Of a stretch of 38,308 nucleotides of DNA, positions 4,390 to 38,308 are shown piece by piece (the first letter of the stretch is position 1; the number at the start of each line of letters is the position of its first letter). The notes below the pieces were generated by a model, which had not been told where the DNA came from, searched no databases, and saw only the letters and a program-made list of their open reading frames with translations. The stretch comes from a virus. The stretch covers positions 1-38,308 of IMG/VR virus record IMGVR_UViG_3300003691_000029; one strand, 5' to 3'. A program made the translations under genes and the position numbers.

Positions 4390-5406
4390 ATGAGCAATGT
4401 GAATTTAATAGTTACTTCAAATAAGAGCGAGGAGCTTGTTAAAAACAAGAAACTCCCTCTTGATTTGAAAGTCATGCTCACTCAAAGCCGTATTGAAGAC
4501 TGGTACGAGCACTGGAATGGACATGTTTATTTATCTTTTTCAGGCGGGAAAGACTCAACTGTTTTAGCCGACATTGTTTGGAGTATTTACCCTGACGTAC
4601 CGGCTGTTTTTTCAAACACTGGTTTGGAATACCCAGAGATAGTTCAGTTTGTGAAAAAGAAACTTGCTGAAGGCAGACCGATTGTAATTGTCCGGCCAGA
4701 AAGAACTTTCAGAGATGTAGTTCTTAAAGATGGATTCCCACTGGTTAGCAAGAAAGTGGCTGAGATGGTTTCTCGGATGCAGAAACCACAAACAGACAGG
4801 AACGCCAATACCAGACGACTTTATATGACTGGAGTAAGGCGGGATGGTGTTTACGTTGCAGGCTCAAAGATACCCGAAAAGTGGAAGTCGTTAATAAATG
4901 CGCCATTCAAAATAACGAATACATGCTGTGATGCTTTAAAAAAAGACCCGTTTAAGAAGTATCAAAAGGAAACTGGAAGAATGCCTATCACTGGCGTTAT
5001 GGGTAGCGAAGGTGGACGCAGAGCATTAATGGATACCTGCAACTCCTTTGATGGTAAAGCCCCTCAAAGCCGTCCAATGCTTTTCTGGGACGAAAACGAT
5101 GTATGGGAATACATACGCACCAGGGATATTGATTACTGCGAAGTGTATGACGATAGGGTTATTGATGGCCGCAAAGTTAAAGGCGAGAAGCGTACCGGCT
5201 GCATGTTCTGCGCGTTCGGGGCTCATATGGAGAAAGACACTACCCGCTTTCAGCGAATGGCTATCTCCCACCCTAAGCAGTGGAACTACTGCATAAACAA
5301 GCTGGGCATGGGTAAAGCGCTGGACTTCATAGGTGTTGAATATCACCCATTGCCAGAAGAAGAACAGCTTGAATTGTTTTACGAAGCTGATCAGAAATCA
5401 GCGTAA
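4390..5406 (+). CDS. PP-loop ATPase, PAPS reductase-like protein with CC/CxxC iron-sulfur motif
   Basis: This 338-residue protein has the adenine-nucleotide alpha-hydrolase PP-loop SGGKDS at residues 51-56 and the following SNTGLEYPE strand typical of the PAPS reductase family. Cys179-Cys180 (NTCCDALKKDP) and Cys271-x-x-Cys274 (TGCMFCAFG) give a CC-X90-CxxC pattern like the four ligands of the [4Fe-4S] cluster in APS reductases and like DndC-type proteins. The C-terminal ECGLH active-site tail of true APS/PAPS reductases is absent, since the protein ends DQKSA. I therefore doubt a role in sulfate assimilation. A nucleotide-activating or sulfur-transfer reaction, perhaps on nucleic acid, is possible but not shown. 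It lies after a terminator, in the second half of the early operon. Confidence 0.85.
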   Translation: MSNVNLIVTSNKSEELVKNKKLPLDLKVMLTQSRIEDWYEHWNGHVYLSFSGGKDSTVLADIVWSIYPDVPAVFSNTGLEYPEIVQFVKKKLAEGRPIVIVRPERTFRDVVLKDGFPLVSKKVAEMVSRMQKPQTDRNANTRRLYMTGVRRDGVYVAGSKIPEKWKSLINAPFKITNTCCDALKKDPFKKYQKETGRMPITGVMGSEGGRRALMDTCNSFDGKAPQSRPMLFWDENDVWEYIRTRDIDYCEVYDDRVIDGRKVKGEKRTGCMFCAFGAHMEKDTTRFQRMAISHPKQWNYCINKLGMGKALDFIGVEYHPLPEEEQLELFYEADQKSA

Positions 5407-33688: not shown

Positions 33689-34345
33689 CCGCCTTCTTTT
33701 TGCATAATTCCTAGCGCGTCTTGAAAATATTTTCTTGATGCGCTTTAGGTATTCTATATCGCCTTTCTTTAAGTCAAGTTCGTTGTTATTTTCAAGCCAT
33801 TCAACTTTATCAATACCAATTTTTTCAATTAAATTAATTCGATATTTGGCGTCAACCGTTGCGGCTTTAGCTGAAAACTTACCACCACCTGCATTGCAAG
33901 ATTTGCATTGCTTGTGGACATTAAAAAGAATAAACCTTAATTGACCTTTAGCTCCTCTTGTCATGAAGTGACCAGCATCCCAGCAGCCACCAGTTTTATA
34001 GCCTTGCTCTGCCTCAATAACCTCCCTTGGTTTGCTGCAACTAATACATGGATTGAGGTAATCCCTAAGCCTTATGTACTTGTTGAATGCTGTTTGAGCT
34101 TCTGAAAGCCACTTTGATTTAGGTTTTATACGATCCTTGTCGGCCTTCAGCTTTGACCTCTCGGCTTTGTGCTCTTTCTTGGCGTTAGTATTAGCCTTTG
34201 CCAGTTGTCGCTCTCTTTGCTTCTGTTGCTTTGTATAGGCGTAATTTGTGGCACAATCAAGAGAATGGAACCTGCCAGCAGGGAGGCATAGCATTTTTTC
34301 ACCTTCAAACCTTTCTTTGCAGCCGCAGCACTTATATTTTTTCAT
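33677..34345 (-). CDS. ninG: NinG recombination protein
   Basis: This 222-residue protein has the lambda NinG (Rap) architecture. An N-terminal Cys cluster (CCGCKERF, then FHSLDCATNYA) is followed by a basic coiled-coil section (KQQKQRERQLAKA). The HNH-like core starts AFNKYIRLRDYLNPCISC, includes CWDAGHFMTRGAKGQLRF and ends VHKQCKSCNAGGGK. Lambda Rap is a structure-specific nuclease that cuts D-loops and Holliday-type branched DNA. It is the last gene of the leftward operon. It starts by an ATGA overlap with the winged-helix gene and ends convergently inside the tailspike gene, with no terminator between them. Confidence 0.9.
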   Translation of the reverse strand: MKKYKCCGCKERFEGEKMLCLPAGRFHSLDCATNYAYTKQQKQRERQLAKANTNAKKEHKAERSKLKADKDRIKPKSKWLSEAQTAFNKYIRLRDYLNPCISCSKPREVIEAEQGYKTGGCWDAGHFMTRGAKGQLRFILFNVHKQCKSCNAGGGKFSAKAATVDAKYRINLIEKIGIDKVEWLENNNELDLKKGDIEYLKRIKKIFSRRARNYAKRRRLSQ

Positions 34346-34608
34346 TCTTCACACATTCTATATTTATTATTTCCTGTGATAGTGACGTACTTGCTTCGCT
34401 CAAGTTTAGATAAAACTCTATGAGCGTGAAGCTCACGCATATTTAATTCATCACATATTTCAATGAAACTTTTATCACCTTTAGCCTTTAAATAAACCAG
34501 TATATGACCCGATGCCTTAGATACACTTAGCCTTTGTGCAACTTTTGGAAACTGTAAAGTTAATGCTCTGATTATCCTTGCAGCGTCATCACCTGTAATC
34601 TCACTCAT
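34342..34608 (-). CDS. Small winged-helix-like DNA-binding protein
   Basis: This 88-residue protein has the pattern of a winged helix in its second half: ASGHILVYLKAKGDKSFIEI, then CDELNMRELHAHRVLSKLER as the recognition-helix region, and SKYVTITGNNKYRM as the wing. It could be a transcriptional regulator of the phage or a DNA-binding helper of NinG or of replication. Its stop overlaps the ninG start (ATGA) and its start overlaps the upstream stop, so it is fully embedded in the leftward operon. The family assignment is by fold pattern only. Confidence 0.68.
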   Translation of the reverse strand: MSEITGDDAARIIRALTLQFPKVAQRLSVSKASGHILVYLKAKGDKSFIEICDELNMRELHAHRVLSKLERSKYVTITGNNKYRMCEE

Positions 34609-36046: not shown

Positions 36047-36708
36047 GATTTCACCTTGTCACTTGATATACACGTAAGTCGAGCTATTTCATTTTTCACA
36101 CCAGCGTCAACTGATGACGTTTTATCATTCTCATCAGTGAAAGGAGATTCCATTAATTCTAGATGCTTTTTCGATTTAGAAATTGATTCAGCTCTTTCGA
36201 TAAGAAGATAAGAGTTTTCTGGCCCAGACAAACCAAATGCAAACGGTGCTATTGGGCTCACTTCATATTTCAGCATTATGCTTATCTCGTGATCTGAATA
36301 TTCGCCTGAAGATGCTCTATCTTTCCATTGAGGTAAAAGTTGAATACATTCCTCCGCTCTCTGTCGAAGATAGAATGAATCCTGTGTATCAAGATCCCAA
36401 GTGCCTATTTGAATTCTTGCAAGACATCCAAGTGGGGTGTTAGCAAGTTTTGCTGCAGCAATTATCGCGTCAGCAGTAATCTCTCCACCTTCAATATGCC
36501 TGATAAGGTCAGCAGGCTTTGGGAAGAACTGTCCTGACTTTGTATCTGCCAGGTGCTGGCTTGCTGCTTGGCTTACTTGGTCAATAGTGAACTTTTGAAG
36601 TGCGCCAAAATATATTTGCATGGCTATTTTGCCAAACTTATCTTTTTGGTAGCAATCAGACAAACTATCAAGCAGCTCTTTGAATCCTGTTTTGTCAGCG
36701 TCATTCAT
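36043..36708 (-). CDS. Putative helicase-loader-like replication protein (DUF6475-like)
   Basis: This 221-residue protein has an N-terminal helical domain of the kind seen next to phage DUF1376 initiators: FKELLDSLSDCYQKDKFGKI, MQIYFGALQKFTIDQVSQAA, then the GQFFPKPADLIRHIEGG motif near residue 75. FPKPADL is characteristic of lambda P-type and DUF6475-type proteins that help load host DnaB helicase. The C-terminal half is divergent. It overlaps the initiator gene by 8 bases, matching the O-P order of lambdoid replication modules. The loader role is inferred from the domain and position. Confidence 0.72.
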   Translation of the reverse strand: MNDADKTGFKELLDSLSDCYQKDKFGKIAMQIYFGALQKFTIDQVSQAASQHLADTKSGQFFPKPADLIRHIEGGEITADAIIAAAKLANTPLGCLARIQIGTWDLDTQDSFYLRQRAEECIQLLPQWKDRASSGEYSDHEISIMLKYEVSPIAPFAFGLSGPENSYLLIERAESISKSKKHLELMESPFTDENDKTSSVDAGVKNEIARLTCISSDKVKS

Positions 36709-37576
36709 GATCTATCGTCTCCCCGCCAGTGTATGAGCCATCAACACCATTTGCCCAATCCAAAACCTCTTGCTCTCGCTGATCAGATGCATTGACGTTT
36801 TTAGTGTATCCAATGAACATTTCTAGCTTTTCATCACTTCTGCAAATAAGCGTAAGCTCATCATAAATTCTGCACTCTGGATTGCTCTTAGGATCTTTGC
36901 CCATGTGATAGCTAGAACCTGCACAGCCATCAATGGCTAGCTTTATCTGTTCACTACTGTACGACTTCAGTCTTGCTTTGATCTTATCAATACGCCCCTT
37001 GGTTGGCTTAGTGGTTGGCCCCTTGTCCATAACTTCACGCCAATATTCAAAGATAGGATAAACAGGATCAGGAACCGGAGGTGACGTATGTGTTTTATCT
37101 TGGTTCTTGGTTAATGGTTCTTGGTTCTTGGTTAATGGTTCTTGGTTCTTGGTTAATGGTTCTTGGTTAGCTTTGCGTTCGCTTTCTGCTGGGTTAGCTA
37201 AATTAACCGACTGGGTTTTTTTAGCTTTGCGTTCGCTTTCTGCTGGGTTAGCTTTAGCTTTTTTAGGTCTGCCACCTTTCTTCCCGTTAACCCTTGCTGA
37301 CTCTGCCTTTGAGTGGTAGCTAGCTATTTCACTGTCAATGCGATTTTGCTTAAATCCATCTTCAGACTCAATAAAGAAATCTTCCAATACAGTTTGAATT
37401 TCTTCCTTGTTATCCTTCATATTTATAAGTCGAGACAATTTAACAACATCATTAATCAATGGGCGTTCCGTATCGTAATACAATTCAATCAGCCTTCTGT
37501 AAGCAAGATCTTCAGTATTACTTAGGTGTCGAGTTGCCTTAGCATAGTCACCAATATTAAATTGGTAGTAATGCAT
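36701..37576 (-). CDS. DUF1376 (YdaU-like) replication initiation protein
   Basis: Of 291 residues, 1-90 form the DUF1376 domain (MHYYQFNIGDYAKATRHLSN, then EDLAYRRLIELYYDTERPL), a winged-helix fold used by phage replication initiators. A Lys/Glu/Asn-rich linker at residues about 95-165 contains two copies of NPAESERKA and 3.4 copies of the heptad NQEPLTK. The C-terminal 120 residues (YWREVMDKGPTTKPTKGRID, SYHMGKDPKSNPECRIYDEL) resemble the conserved tail domain of such initiators. By analogy with lambda O, the DNA repeats in the linker may be the origin to which this protein binds. It is preceded by the RHH-like gene and followed by the probable helicase loader. Confidence 0.85.
   Translation of the reverse strand: MHYYQFNIGDYAKATRHLSNTEDLAYRRLIELYYDTERPLINDVVKLSRLINMKDNKEEIQTVLEDFFIESEDGFKQNRIDSEIASYHSKAESARVNGKKGGRPKKAKANPAESERKAKKTQSVNLANPAESERKANQEPLTKNQEPLTKNQEPLTKNQDKTHTSPPVPDPVYPIFEYWREVMDKGPTTKPTKGRIDKIKARLKSYSSEQIKLAIDGCAGSSYHMGKDPKSNPECRIYDELTLICRSDEKLEMFIGYTKNVNASDQREQEVLDWANGVDGSYTGGETIDHE
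37097..37168. repeat. 21-bp tandem repeats (3.4 copies), candidate origin iterons
   Basis: Units lie at 37097-37117 (first base differs), 37118-37138, 37139-37159 and a 9-base partial at 37160-37168. Each unit contains TTCTTGGTTCTTGGTTAATG. They encode NQEPLTK repeats in the replication initiator on the minus strand. Perfect conservation at the DNA level, including third codon positions, suggests recent duplication or a DNA function such as iterons of an origin. Confidence 0.85.
37167..37199. repeat. 33-bp direct repeat, copy 1
   Basis: This segment is identical to 37221-37253, with copies 54 bp apart. On the minus strand it encodes NPAESERKA with flanking Ala/Lys. It touches the 21-bp tandem array, which makes a compact repeat cluster in the linker of the DUF1376 initiator. 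Confidence 0.85.
37221..37253. repeat. 33-bp direct repeat, copy 2
   Basis: This is the exact second copy of 37167-37199. The 21 bases between the copies hold an AT-rich stretch (CTGGGTTTTTT), which would suit a DNA unwinding element if this is the replication origin. Confidence 0.85.
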
Positions 37577-37578
37577 GA

Positions 37579-37740
37579 TTATTTAACTTCCTTTTTATGA
37601 GCTGCCTCGATTAATTGTTCGACAATCCCCTGTTTAGTTTTGACAGGCATATGGTTGGCCTCTCTTACTTCAGAAATCTCAATGAGCTTCTTATTGAAAT
37701 GTGGATTTAGATGTAATGTTGTCTTTTTAACTTCTTTCAT
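37579..37740 (-). CDS. Small ribbon-helix-helix-like protein (candidate regulator)
   Basis: ATG at 37740-37738 on the minus strand opens a 53-residue frame to TAA at 37581-37579. The product begins KEVKKTTLHLNPHFNKKLIE, a beta strand followed by a helix. A second helix, TKQGIVEQLIEAAHKK, follows after a short turn. This is the strand-helix-helix order and length of Arc/MetJ/CopG-type repressors. It is the first gene of the leftward operon, 31 bases after the predicted -10 element, so it could repress its own and the divergent promoter. The fold call is by pattern, and DNA binding is not proven. Confidence 0.65.
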   Translation of the reverse strand: MKEVKKTTLHLNPHFNKKLIEISEVREANHMPVKTKQGIVEQLIEAAHKKEVK

Positions 37741-37770
37741 GACTACCTCTATGCGTTTATTTATGACTGA

Positions 37771-37799
37771 AATATAAGCGTTAAGCTTGGTATAGTCAA
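37771..37799 (-). promoter_or_regulatory. Leftward early promoter (sigma70 type)
   Basis: On the minus strand, TTGACT (37799-37794) and TATATT (37776-37771) are separated by exactly 17 bases. This is a near-consensus sigma70 promoter placed to drive the RHH-like and replication genes. An AAGC-GTTAA-GCTT inverted repeat lies in the spacer at 37776-37788. Confidence 0.75.
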
Positions 37800-37851
37800 T
37801 ATATAAAATAATTATAAATAACCATTGATCTAATTTTATATCTATACTATA
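37791..37851. promoter_or_regulatory. Candidate bipartite operator: 19-bp imperfect inverted repeat
   Basis: Left half-site 37791-37809 and the reverse complement of right half-site 37833-37851 share TATAGT, then 4 mostly differing bases, then ATATAAAAT (16 of 19 match). The gap is 23 bases. The left arm covers the -35 of the leftward promoter and the right arm the -10 of the rightward one, so one regulator could control both. Confidence 0.55.
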
Positions 37852-37853
37852 GT
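37825..37853 (+). promoter_or_regulatory. Rightward early promoter (sigma70 type)
   Basis: TTGATC (37825-37830) and TATAGT (37848-37853) are separated by 17 bases. The GTG of the first rightward gene follows 25 bases after the -10. This promoter would drive the recombination operon through the circle junction to the terminator at 6961. Confidence 0.72.
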
Positions 37854-37878
37854 TTCAATCATCAACAAGGAGAAGCAA

Positions 37879-38055
37879 GTGAGTGATACAGCTAAACAGA
37901 TTCTTCTCTGCTTTATTGCGCTATTCATTCTTGGTTTAGTTGGCCAGATGGATTACGAAGAAGCAGAAAGCAAGGTTACTAAGTATTGCCAAATGACTAA
38001 AGAAGGTCACTGGAAAAAGTTTGATAAGTCAATTAAGTGTGAGGCTAGTGAATGA
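37879..38055 (+). CDS. Small membrane-anchored hypothetical protein
   Basis: GTG at 37879, with AAGGAG at 37867-37872, opens a 58-residue frame ending TGA 38053-38055. Residues about 7-23 (QILLCFIALFILGLVGQ) form one hydrophobic segment. The rest (DYEEAESKVTKYCQMTKEGH, then a basic end) is charged and would face one side of the inner membrane. It is the first gene after the rightward promoter. First early genes often act on the host, for example in superinfection exclusion, but there is no direct evidence here. Its stop overlaps the next ATG (ATGA). Confidence 0.65.
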   Translation: MSDTAKQILLCFIALFILGLVGQMDYEEAESKVTKYCQMTKEGHWKKFDKSIKCEASE

Positions 38056-38308
38056 ATTTTATGTCAAAGGATAGTGAAATGATTTGCGTTAATTCTTATC
38101 ACACTGATAAGCATTTAACTGAGCAGGATCAGCAAGAGCAGCGTGAAGTGTGGGTTGAAGGGCACCGTGATGAGTTGTCTGGAAAGCTGGTTAATGGAGC
38201 AAAGGTGAGATTGTCAGGCGGTAATTATATTGATTACTCAGAAGTTACTGACAACTTAGGCGAAGAGTTCTGGTCGTATCTTCAGAGCTTTCACGGATCA
38301 CTTGAAGG
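38052..38308 (+). CDS. 5' part of junction-spanning hypothetical protein
   Basis: ATG 38052 (overlapping the previous stop as ATGA) opens a frame that leaves the window at 38308 and continues at position 1 to a TAG at 177-179 once the 58-bp overlap is collapsed. The first part contains SYHTDKHLTEQDQQEQREVW, then VNGAKVRLSGGNYIDYSEV and NLGEEFWSYLQSFHGSLEGG. ATG 38061 is an alternative start 3 codons in. The total is about 124 residues. No family is recognised. The gene links the small membrane protein to the Rad52-like gene in one operon. Confidence 0.8.
   Translation, partial: MNFMSKDSEMICVNSYHTDKHLTEQDQQEQREVWVEGHRDELSGKLVNGAKVRLSGGNYIDYSEVTDNLGEEFWSYLQSFHGSLE
38251..38308. repeat. Right copy of 58-bp terminal direct repeat (circle overlap)
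   Basis: This is identical to bases 1-58. See the left copy for why it is read as an assembly overlap of a circular map and not as a biological terminal repeat. Confidence 0.95.

Follow-up and report, generated by a model that had tools for sequence, protein, structure and literature searches.

Can an RHH-like protein hold, in another bacterial phage with diverging early promoters, the place that Cro holds in lambda? This question is raised by a 138-base gap (37741-37878) in IMGVR_UViG_3300003691_000029, the record of a marine, BA3-like podophage; the window analyzed here is this whole record of 38,308 bp. A preliminary description of the same DNA had pointed to two promoters facing apart, an inverted repeat embracing them and an RHH-like gene next to them, and had proposed that they form a compact switch. 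From the analysis below, we consider it probable that the 53-residue protein encoded beside the gap is a Cro-like, self-limiting early repressor of the RHH type, acting on paired half-sites and carried on a cassette that is exchangeable with Cro/C1-type HTH versions.

Genome organization and divergent promoters

The ends of the record carry an identical 58-bp repeat (1-58 and 38251-38308), and joining them completes a gene of 125 aa. The record is therefore probably a complete circular map. The gap studied here separates the leftward 53-codon gene from the rightward 58-codon gene (Table 1). On the leftward side, the gene for the 53-aa protein is followed by the DUF1376/primosomal gene, then by genes for a weakly helicase-loader-like protein, NinB/Orf and NinG/Rap. 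On the rightward side, the PHROG 6168 protein is followed, across the joined ends, by an Erf-like annealing protein and an exonuclease. The genes are thus arranged as in the PL and PR operons of lambda.

Profiles for HTH_3, HTH_26 and Phage_CI_repr gave no match anywhere in the record, in agreement with the earlier statement that no CI/Cro-type gene is present. Profiles for tyrosine integrase and resolvase were also empty across the record. Other features of the genome were recorded along the way. An 88-aa protein of the Nin region (34342-34608, minus strand) has a weak winged-helix (MarR_2) match and might be a second small regulator; a PAPS reductase-like gene (PHROG 424) lies at 4390-5406 (plus strand); and short direct repeats GGTTCTTGGTTAAT within the DUF1376 gene (37107-37165) give a repeated QEPLTKN stretch in the protein linker.

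Both promoters of the preliminary description, each with a 17-base spacer and pointing apart, were recovered base for base and are sigma-70-like. Promoter-like matches by themselves are not significant in this region (3 observed versus 2.3 expected). The rightward promoter (TTG, 17 bases, TAnAnT, then TTCAATCATCAACA) aligns with its counterpart in 16 related loci, and the alignment shows that this promoter and its leader are kept in all types of the regulator locus described below.

Table 1. Features at and around the divergent early promoters (positions in the 38,308-bp record).
Feature	Position	Strand	Sequence or basis
DUF1376 / primosomal or O-like replication gene	36701..37576	-	homology with phages of all regulator types from its ATG
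RHH-like protein of 53 aa and proposed autorepressor; its gene opens the leftward (replication) operon	37579..37740	-	ORF, translation, model, homologues
Leftward promoter, sigma-70-like	37771..37799	-	TTGACT 37799-37794, 17-base spacer, TATATT 37776-37771
Half-site 1, candidate operator over the leftward -35	37791..37809	+	TATAGTCAATATATAAAAT
Rightward promoter, sigma-70-like	37825..37853	+	TTGATC 37825-37830, 17-base spacer, TATAGT 37848-37853; aligned with relatives
Half-site 2, candidate operator, rightward spacer and start of -10	37833..37851	-	TATAGTATAGATATAAAAT, read 37851-37833
Conserved rightward leader	37855..37874	+	TCAATCATCAACAAGGAG..; in relatives, regulator types are joined on the right within it or slightly ahead of it
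58-aa small protein, hydrophobic N-terminal stretch, PHROG 6168	37879..38055	+	first rightward gene; conserved across the group

Predicted fold of the 53-aa protein

An AlphaFold2 monomer model of the 53-aa protein, built with seven sequences, reached a pLDDT of 85.7. It contains two confident helices (residues 13-28 and 36-52), a low-confidence N-terminal stretch and no formed strand. An RHH monomer is expected to look like this, since its strand pairs only in the dimer; RHH proteins are obligate dimers in which a two-stranded sheet formed between the subunits reads the major groove. When this model was submitted to Foldseek, the first nine PDB matches were MetJ, TraM and ParD-type chains or RHH domains, all below significance (E of about 0.9 or worse). 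VIA-align returned HicB, TraM and ParD at Z scores of 5.2-6.3, which are not significant alone. For the model of a relative of type B (see below), the Foldseek hits were non-specific, and the four best VIA-align rows were TraM, ParD2, MatP and MazE9, which we take to be proteins with RHH or RHH-like DNA-binding parts.

No RHH profile or sequence match to the 53-aa protein was obtained in Pfam, PHROGs, NCBIfam or the PDB sequences, and the PF01402 profile matched nothing in the whole record. Profiles of this fold often miss very short, divergent members. The predicted fold differs from the Cro/C1-type HTH, so the protein does not belong to the Cro family by homology. Altogether, the dominance of RHH neighbors in lists of weak structural matches makes an RHH fold likely, rather than proven. 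The earlier assignment of the first leftward gene to an RHH-like protein thus stands on its fold prediction and on structural neighbors that are almost all RHH, with weak scores and no profile match.

An inverted repeat over both promoters

The half-sites TATAGTCAATATATAAAAT and TATAGTATAGATATAAAAT are identical at 16 of 19 bases, with centers 42 bp apart, or about four helical turns. The left arm holds the entire leftward -35; the right arm is within the rightward spacer and reaches into the -10 as far as its fourth base. This bears out the placement given in the preliminary description, with one half-site on the leftward -35 and the other on the rightward -10. As the arms fall on different elements (a -35 and part of a -10), the repeat is not merely two copies of one promoter element.

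In dinucleotide shuffles of the region, the best 19-mer inverted repeat reached at least 16 matches in 8 cases out of 1000 (about 0.8%). Among roughly 830 windows of 138 bp taken across the record, 16 matches were found in two windows only, both containing this repeat. No third copy of the half-site is present in the record at up to three mismatches. An exact search of IMG/VR for the paired half-sites gave no match in any other phage, and in the nearest RHH relative (58% identical) the best match to the half-site in the promoter region was no better than in shuffled DNA (94/500). The 53-aa protein of this record is the sole member of its subtype among those compared. We infer that the half-sites would serve as operators.

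A regulator slot shared by related phages

DNA similarity of the region points to Thalassomonas phage BA3 and to Vibrio phages 1.183.O and 1.184.A. Homologues of the 53-aa protein, with 31-58% identity, were found in Vibrio phages 1.183.O, 1.211.A, 24E30.2 and 41E34.2 and in IMG/VR contigs. They occupy the same slot: each opens the leftward operon and points away from the PHROG 6168 gene or Erf, except that the IMG/VR contigs behind L091 and L099 have other small genes on the rightward side. In about half of the relatives, including BA3, Shewanella phage X14, 1.184.A, PGA and several contigs, the slot holds a Cro/C1-type HTH gene as identified by Pfam, which strengthens the earlier interpretation of the 53-aa gene. 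None of the loci read had an RHH relative and a Cro/C1-type HTH gene together in one slot. A search of GTDB genomes for the RHH family gave no confirmed relative. In phage VvAW1, an HTH gene at the transcriptional divergence was called a C1 homologue in 2012, and no integrase was found (PMC3558961).

Some loci depart from this scheme. A 64-aa slot protein ahead of DUF1376 (L008:2803-2997, plus strand) has little similarity to the RHH family and no Pfam match, and is possibly a third kind of slot gene. In two type A cassettes, a GIY-YIG nuclease-like gene lies between the RHH gene and DUF1376 (L084:4162-4626 and L005:2534-2998, both plus strand). Its product might be a homing nuclease that helps the cassette to be exchanged.

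Exchange joints of the cassette

When loci of different slot types were compared, the replication-side joint was sharp: in nearly every pair, the DUF1376 ATG (position 501) marks the onset of homology to within a few bases. Phages 1.183.O (RHH) and 1.184.A (HTH) are 95.5% identical from one base before this ATG, and the same edge was found between this record and BA3 or the Vibrio phages. At the rightward joint, homology sets in inside the leader CATCAACACGGAG or slightly ahead of it, with 20-48 bp left to the rightward gene. One pair, L105 (RHH type B) and L103 (HTH), is 96% identical over 1020 bp from this leader on, with no detectable match before it. In same-type comparisons, the slot gene and the promoter region are also conserved.

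The phylogeny of the Erf protein was read against slot type. At least four changes of slot type fall on well-supported branches, the types cluster no more than shuffled labels do, and identical Erf proteins were found beside both RHH and HTH slot genes. The sharp joints, and an Erf tree that does not track the regulator type, indicate that the regulator gene, the operator zone and the leftward promoter were exchanged together. As read from these alignments, this cassette moves as one piece, and its flanks are kept.

A similar leader, TCA[AG]TCAT[AC]AA[CT]AA, opens both early transcripts of this record (37855-37868, plus strand; 37770-37757, minus strand), and the pattern occurs nowhere else in it. 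The right copy CATCAACAC is near-universal in relatives, and the XRE1 type alone has a clear left copy. Since the left copy beats chance only in that type, the shared leader was dropped as a regulatory element of this record.

Type-specific boxes in relatives

The DNA between the -35 hexamers differs by slot type in the related loci. In RHH type B (five distinct genomes), AAAAAAGTATACAAAAA stands three bases before the rightward -35 (AAAAAAGTATACAAAAA-NNN-TTG). This box stays invariant in a locus that encodes a protein of only 73% identity and is otherwise diverged in its promoter DNA. Of 164 loci collected by protein, irrespective of the box, none but the seven type B loci carry its core. The possibility that it is a common motif was discarded: the exact pattern occurs in 7 IMG/VR stretches, 3 of which are type B contigs and the other 4 of which are from unrelated phages (two intergenic, two inside genes). 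Type A loci share a box of their own, AAAAAAGTARAAGTAAAGTTGA, seen in type A only. Both boxes are A-rich and lie at the rightward -35, where proteins of the RHH family may use them as operators. The sites of the relatives differ in sequence and position, and the exact geometry of this record is not conserved.

Discussion

The DNA itself displays the repeat, the slot, the exchange joints and the type-specific boxes of relatives; an RHH fold for the dimer, DNA binding, repression and timing are what we infer. In the proposed mechanism, the leftward promoter would give a first transcript encoding the 53-aa RHH-type repressor, which would accumulate after infection. Bound as dimers to the paired half-sites, it would cover the -35 on the leftward side and the -10 region on the rightward side; after an early burst, this occlusion would damp the replication operon that encodes it and, to the right, the recombination operon. 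The protein would thereby act as Cro does at PL and PR of lambda, except that it has no CI counterpart. Its gene has the Cro-type position, first in the early replication operon and at divergent early promoters, and the candidate half-sites overlap both promoters. Negative autoregulation through promoter occlusion is usual among RHH proteins (PMC5569661).

The switch of the preliminary description, in its bistable sense, did not survive. Only one regulator is present, and a limiter or timer is therefore expected rather than a two-state device; with no second, opposing regulator and no lysogeny gene found in the record, a bistable CI/Cro switch was rejected. A type II toxin-antitoxin module was also rejected, as the adjoining genes are the DUF1376 replication gene and the PHROG 6168 protein gene, neither of them a toxin.

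Two rival readings concern the operator. The repeat might be a chance product of A/T-rich promoter DNA, given the shuffles that reach 16/19 and the lack of conservation of the half-sites in other phages; its standing as a unique maximum over the record, and promoter hexamers that do not explain the repeated bases, make us regard such an origin as rather unlikely, though it deserves serious attention. Alternatively, the slot regulator could bind through the A/T-rich stretch between the -35 hexamers (37800-37824) and not through the half-sites. The type A and B boxes do sit between these hexamers and abut the rightward -35, and the chance level of the repeat in A/T-rich DNA also speaks for this. 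However, the 16/19 repeat is the best of the record and is placed on promoter elements, and binding at the A/T stretch is in our view unlikely.

The role of the protein can be questioned as well. A CI-like master repressor of a temperate phage, silencing the whole early region and conferring immunity, would fit a gene at the transcriptional divergence; such a role was proposed by the VvAW1 authors for the HTH gene that fills the slot there (PMC3558961), and F55, an RHH protein of SSV1, behaves like CI (PMC5569661). But integrase and resolvase were not found in the record, and the scan of cellular genomes gave no relatives. Moreover, the gene leads the replication operon and is read in its direction; this is the position of Cro and implies that the protein would repress itself. 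Thus, we hold a CI-like function to be improbable. Still less credible, and indeed very improbable, is an antitoxin-like or relaxosome-like protein with its main role elsewhere, in toxin neutralization or in DNA-structure work at a replication origin. Its closest structural matches include the antitoxins ParD, HicB and MazE and the relaxosome protein TraM, and its gene heads the replication operon. Yet the next gene encodes a replication protein, no toxin-like neighbor is present, the protein has no extra C-terminal domain for a toxin, and other phages keep Cro/C1-type genes in this slot. A self-limiting RHH repressor remains the reading that we prefer.

This proposed repressor recalls several known systems. 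As with Cro and PL/PR of lambda, two early promoters diverge, the replication operon opens with the gene of a small DNA-binding protein, the recombination genes lie on the opposite side, and regulator and operators travel together between phages. The protein is RHH-like here, unlike the HTH of lambda, and no CI gene, maintenance promoter, integrase or triple operators accompany it in this record. The HTH slot genes of BA3, X14 and 1.184.A (read here) and of VvAW1 (according to PMC3558961) also have the replication gene on one side and the conserved rightward promoter on the other, with the same neighbors, but an unrelated fold and an unrelated operator zone. Arc and Mnt of the P22 immI region are likewise small RHH repressors of a podophage, and Arc is autoregulated (work cited among the references of PMC2629481). 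They control the antirepressor gene in a late-operon insert, however, and not divergent early promoters, and no sequence similarity of the 53-aa protein to Arc or Mnt was found. F55 of SSV1 and SvtR of SIRV1 are viral RHH proteins acting at viral promoters including their own (PMC5569661). They differ in working on archaeal promoters, in the maintenance of lysogeny by F55, and in having no detectable sequence relation to the 53-aa protein.

Thus, Cro-like early repressors, RHH repressors (Arc, Mnt, F55) and the swapping of immunity regions are already known. What appears new is that an RHH-like protein takes the Cro position where early promoters diverge in a bacterial phage with no visible lysogeny module, and that HTH repressors can replace it across precise joints; in the open-access literature, no paper was found on RHH proteins at such promoters. 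Phages without a detectable lysogeny module (a statement that covers the whole of this record and, for relatives, the regions read) could keep interchangeable repressor cassettes built on two unrelated folds, RHH and HTH, so that co-infecting phages are mutually insensitive. Each cassette would have its own operators and would be swapped between fixed joints, one at the rightward leader and the other at the replication gene's start codon. We offer this as a tentative idea, possible although we lean against it. If true, it would mean heteroimmunity among phages that are not known to form lysogens.

These results would suggest a likely function, with predicted DNA sites, for a family of 50-residue "hypothetical" proteins in Vibrio phages 1.183.O, 1.211.A, 24E30.2 and 41E34.2. 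They also raise the question of why phages without a lysogeny module keep swapping repressor specificity. If the cassette works as proposed, an unrelated fold can replace a Cro-like control element with promoters and flanking genes unchanged, and regulator and operator would form one unit of exchange even where lysogeny genes are absent.
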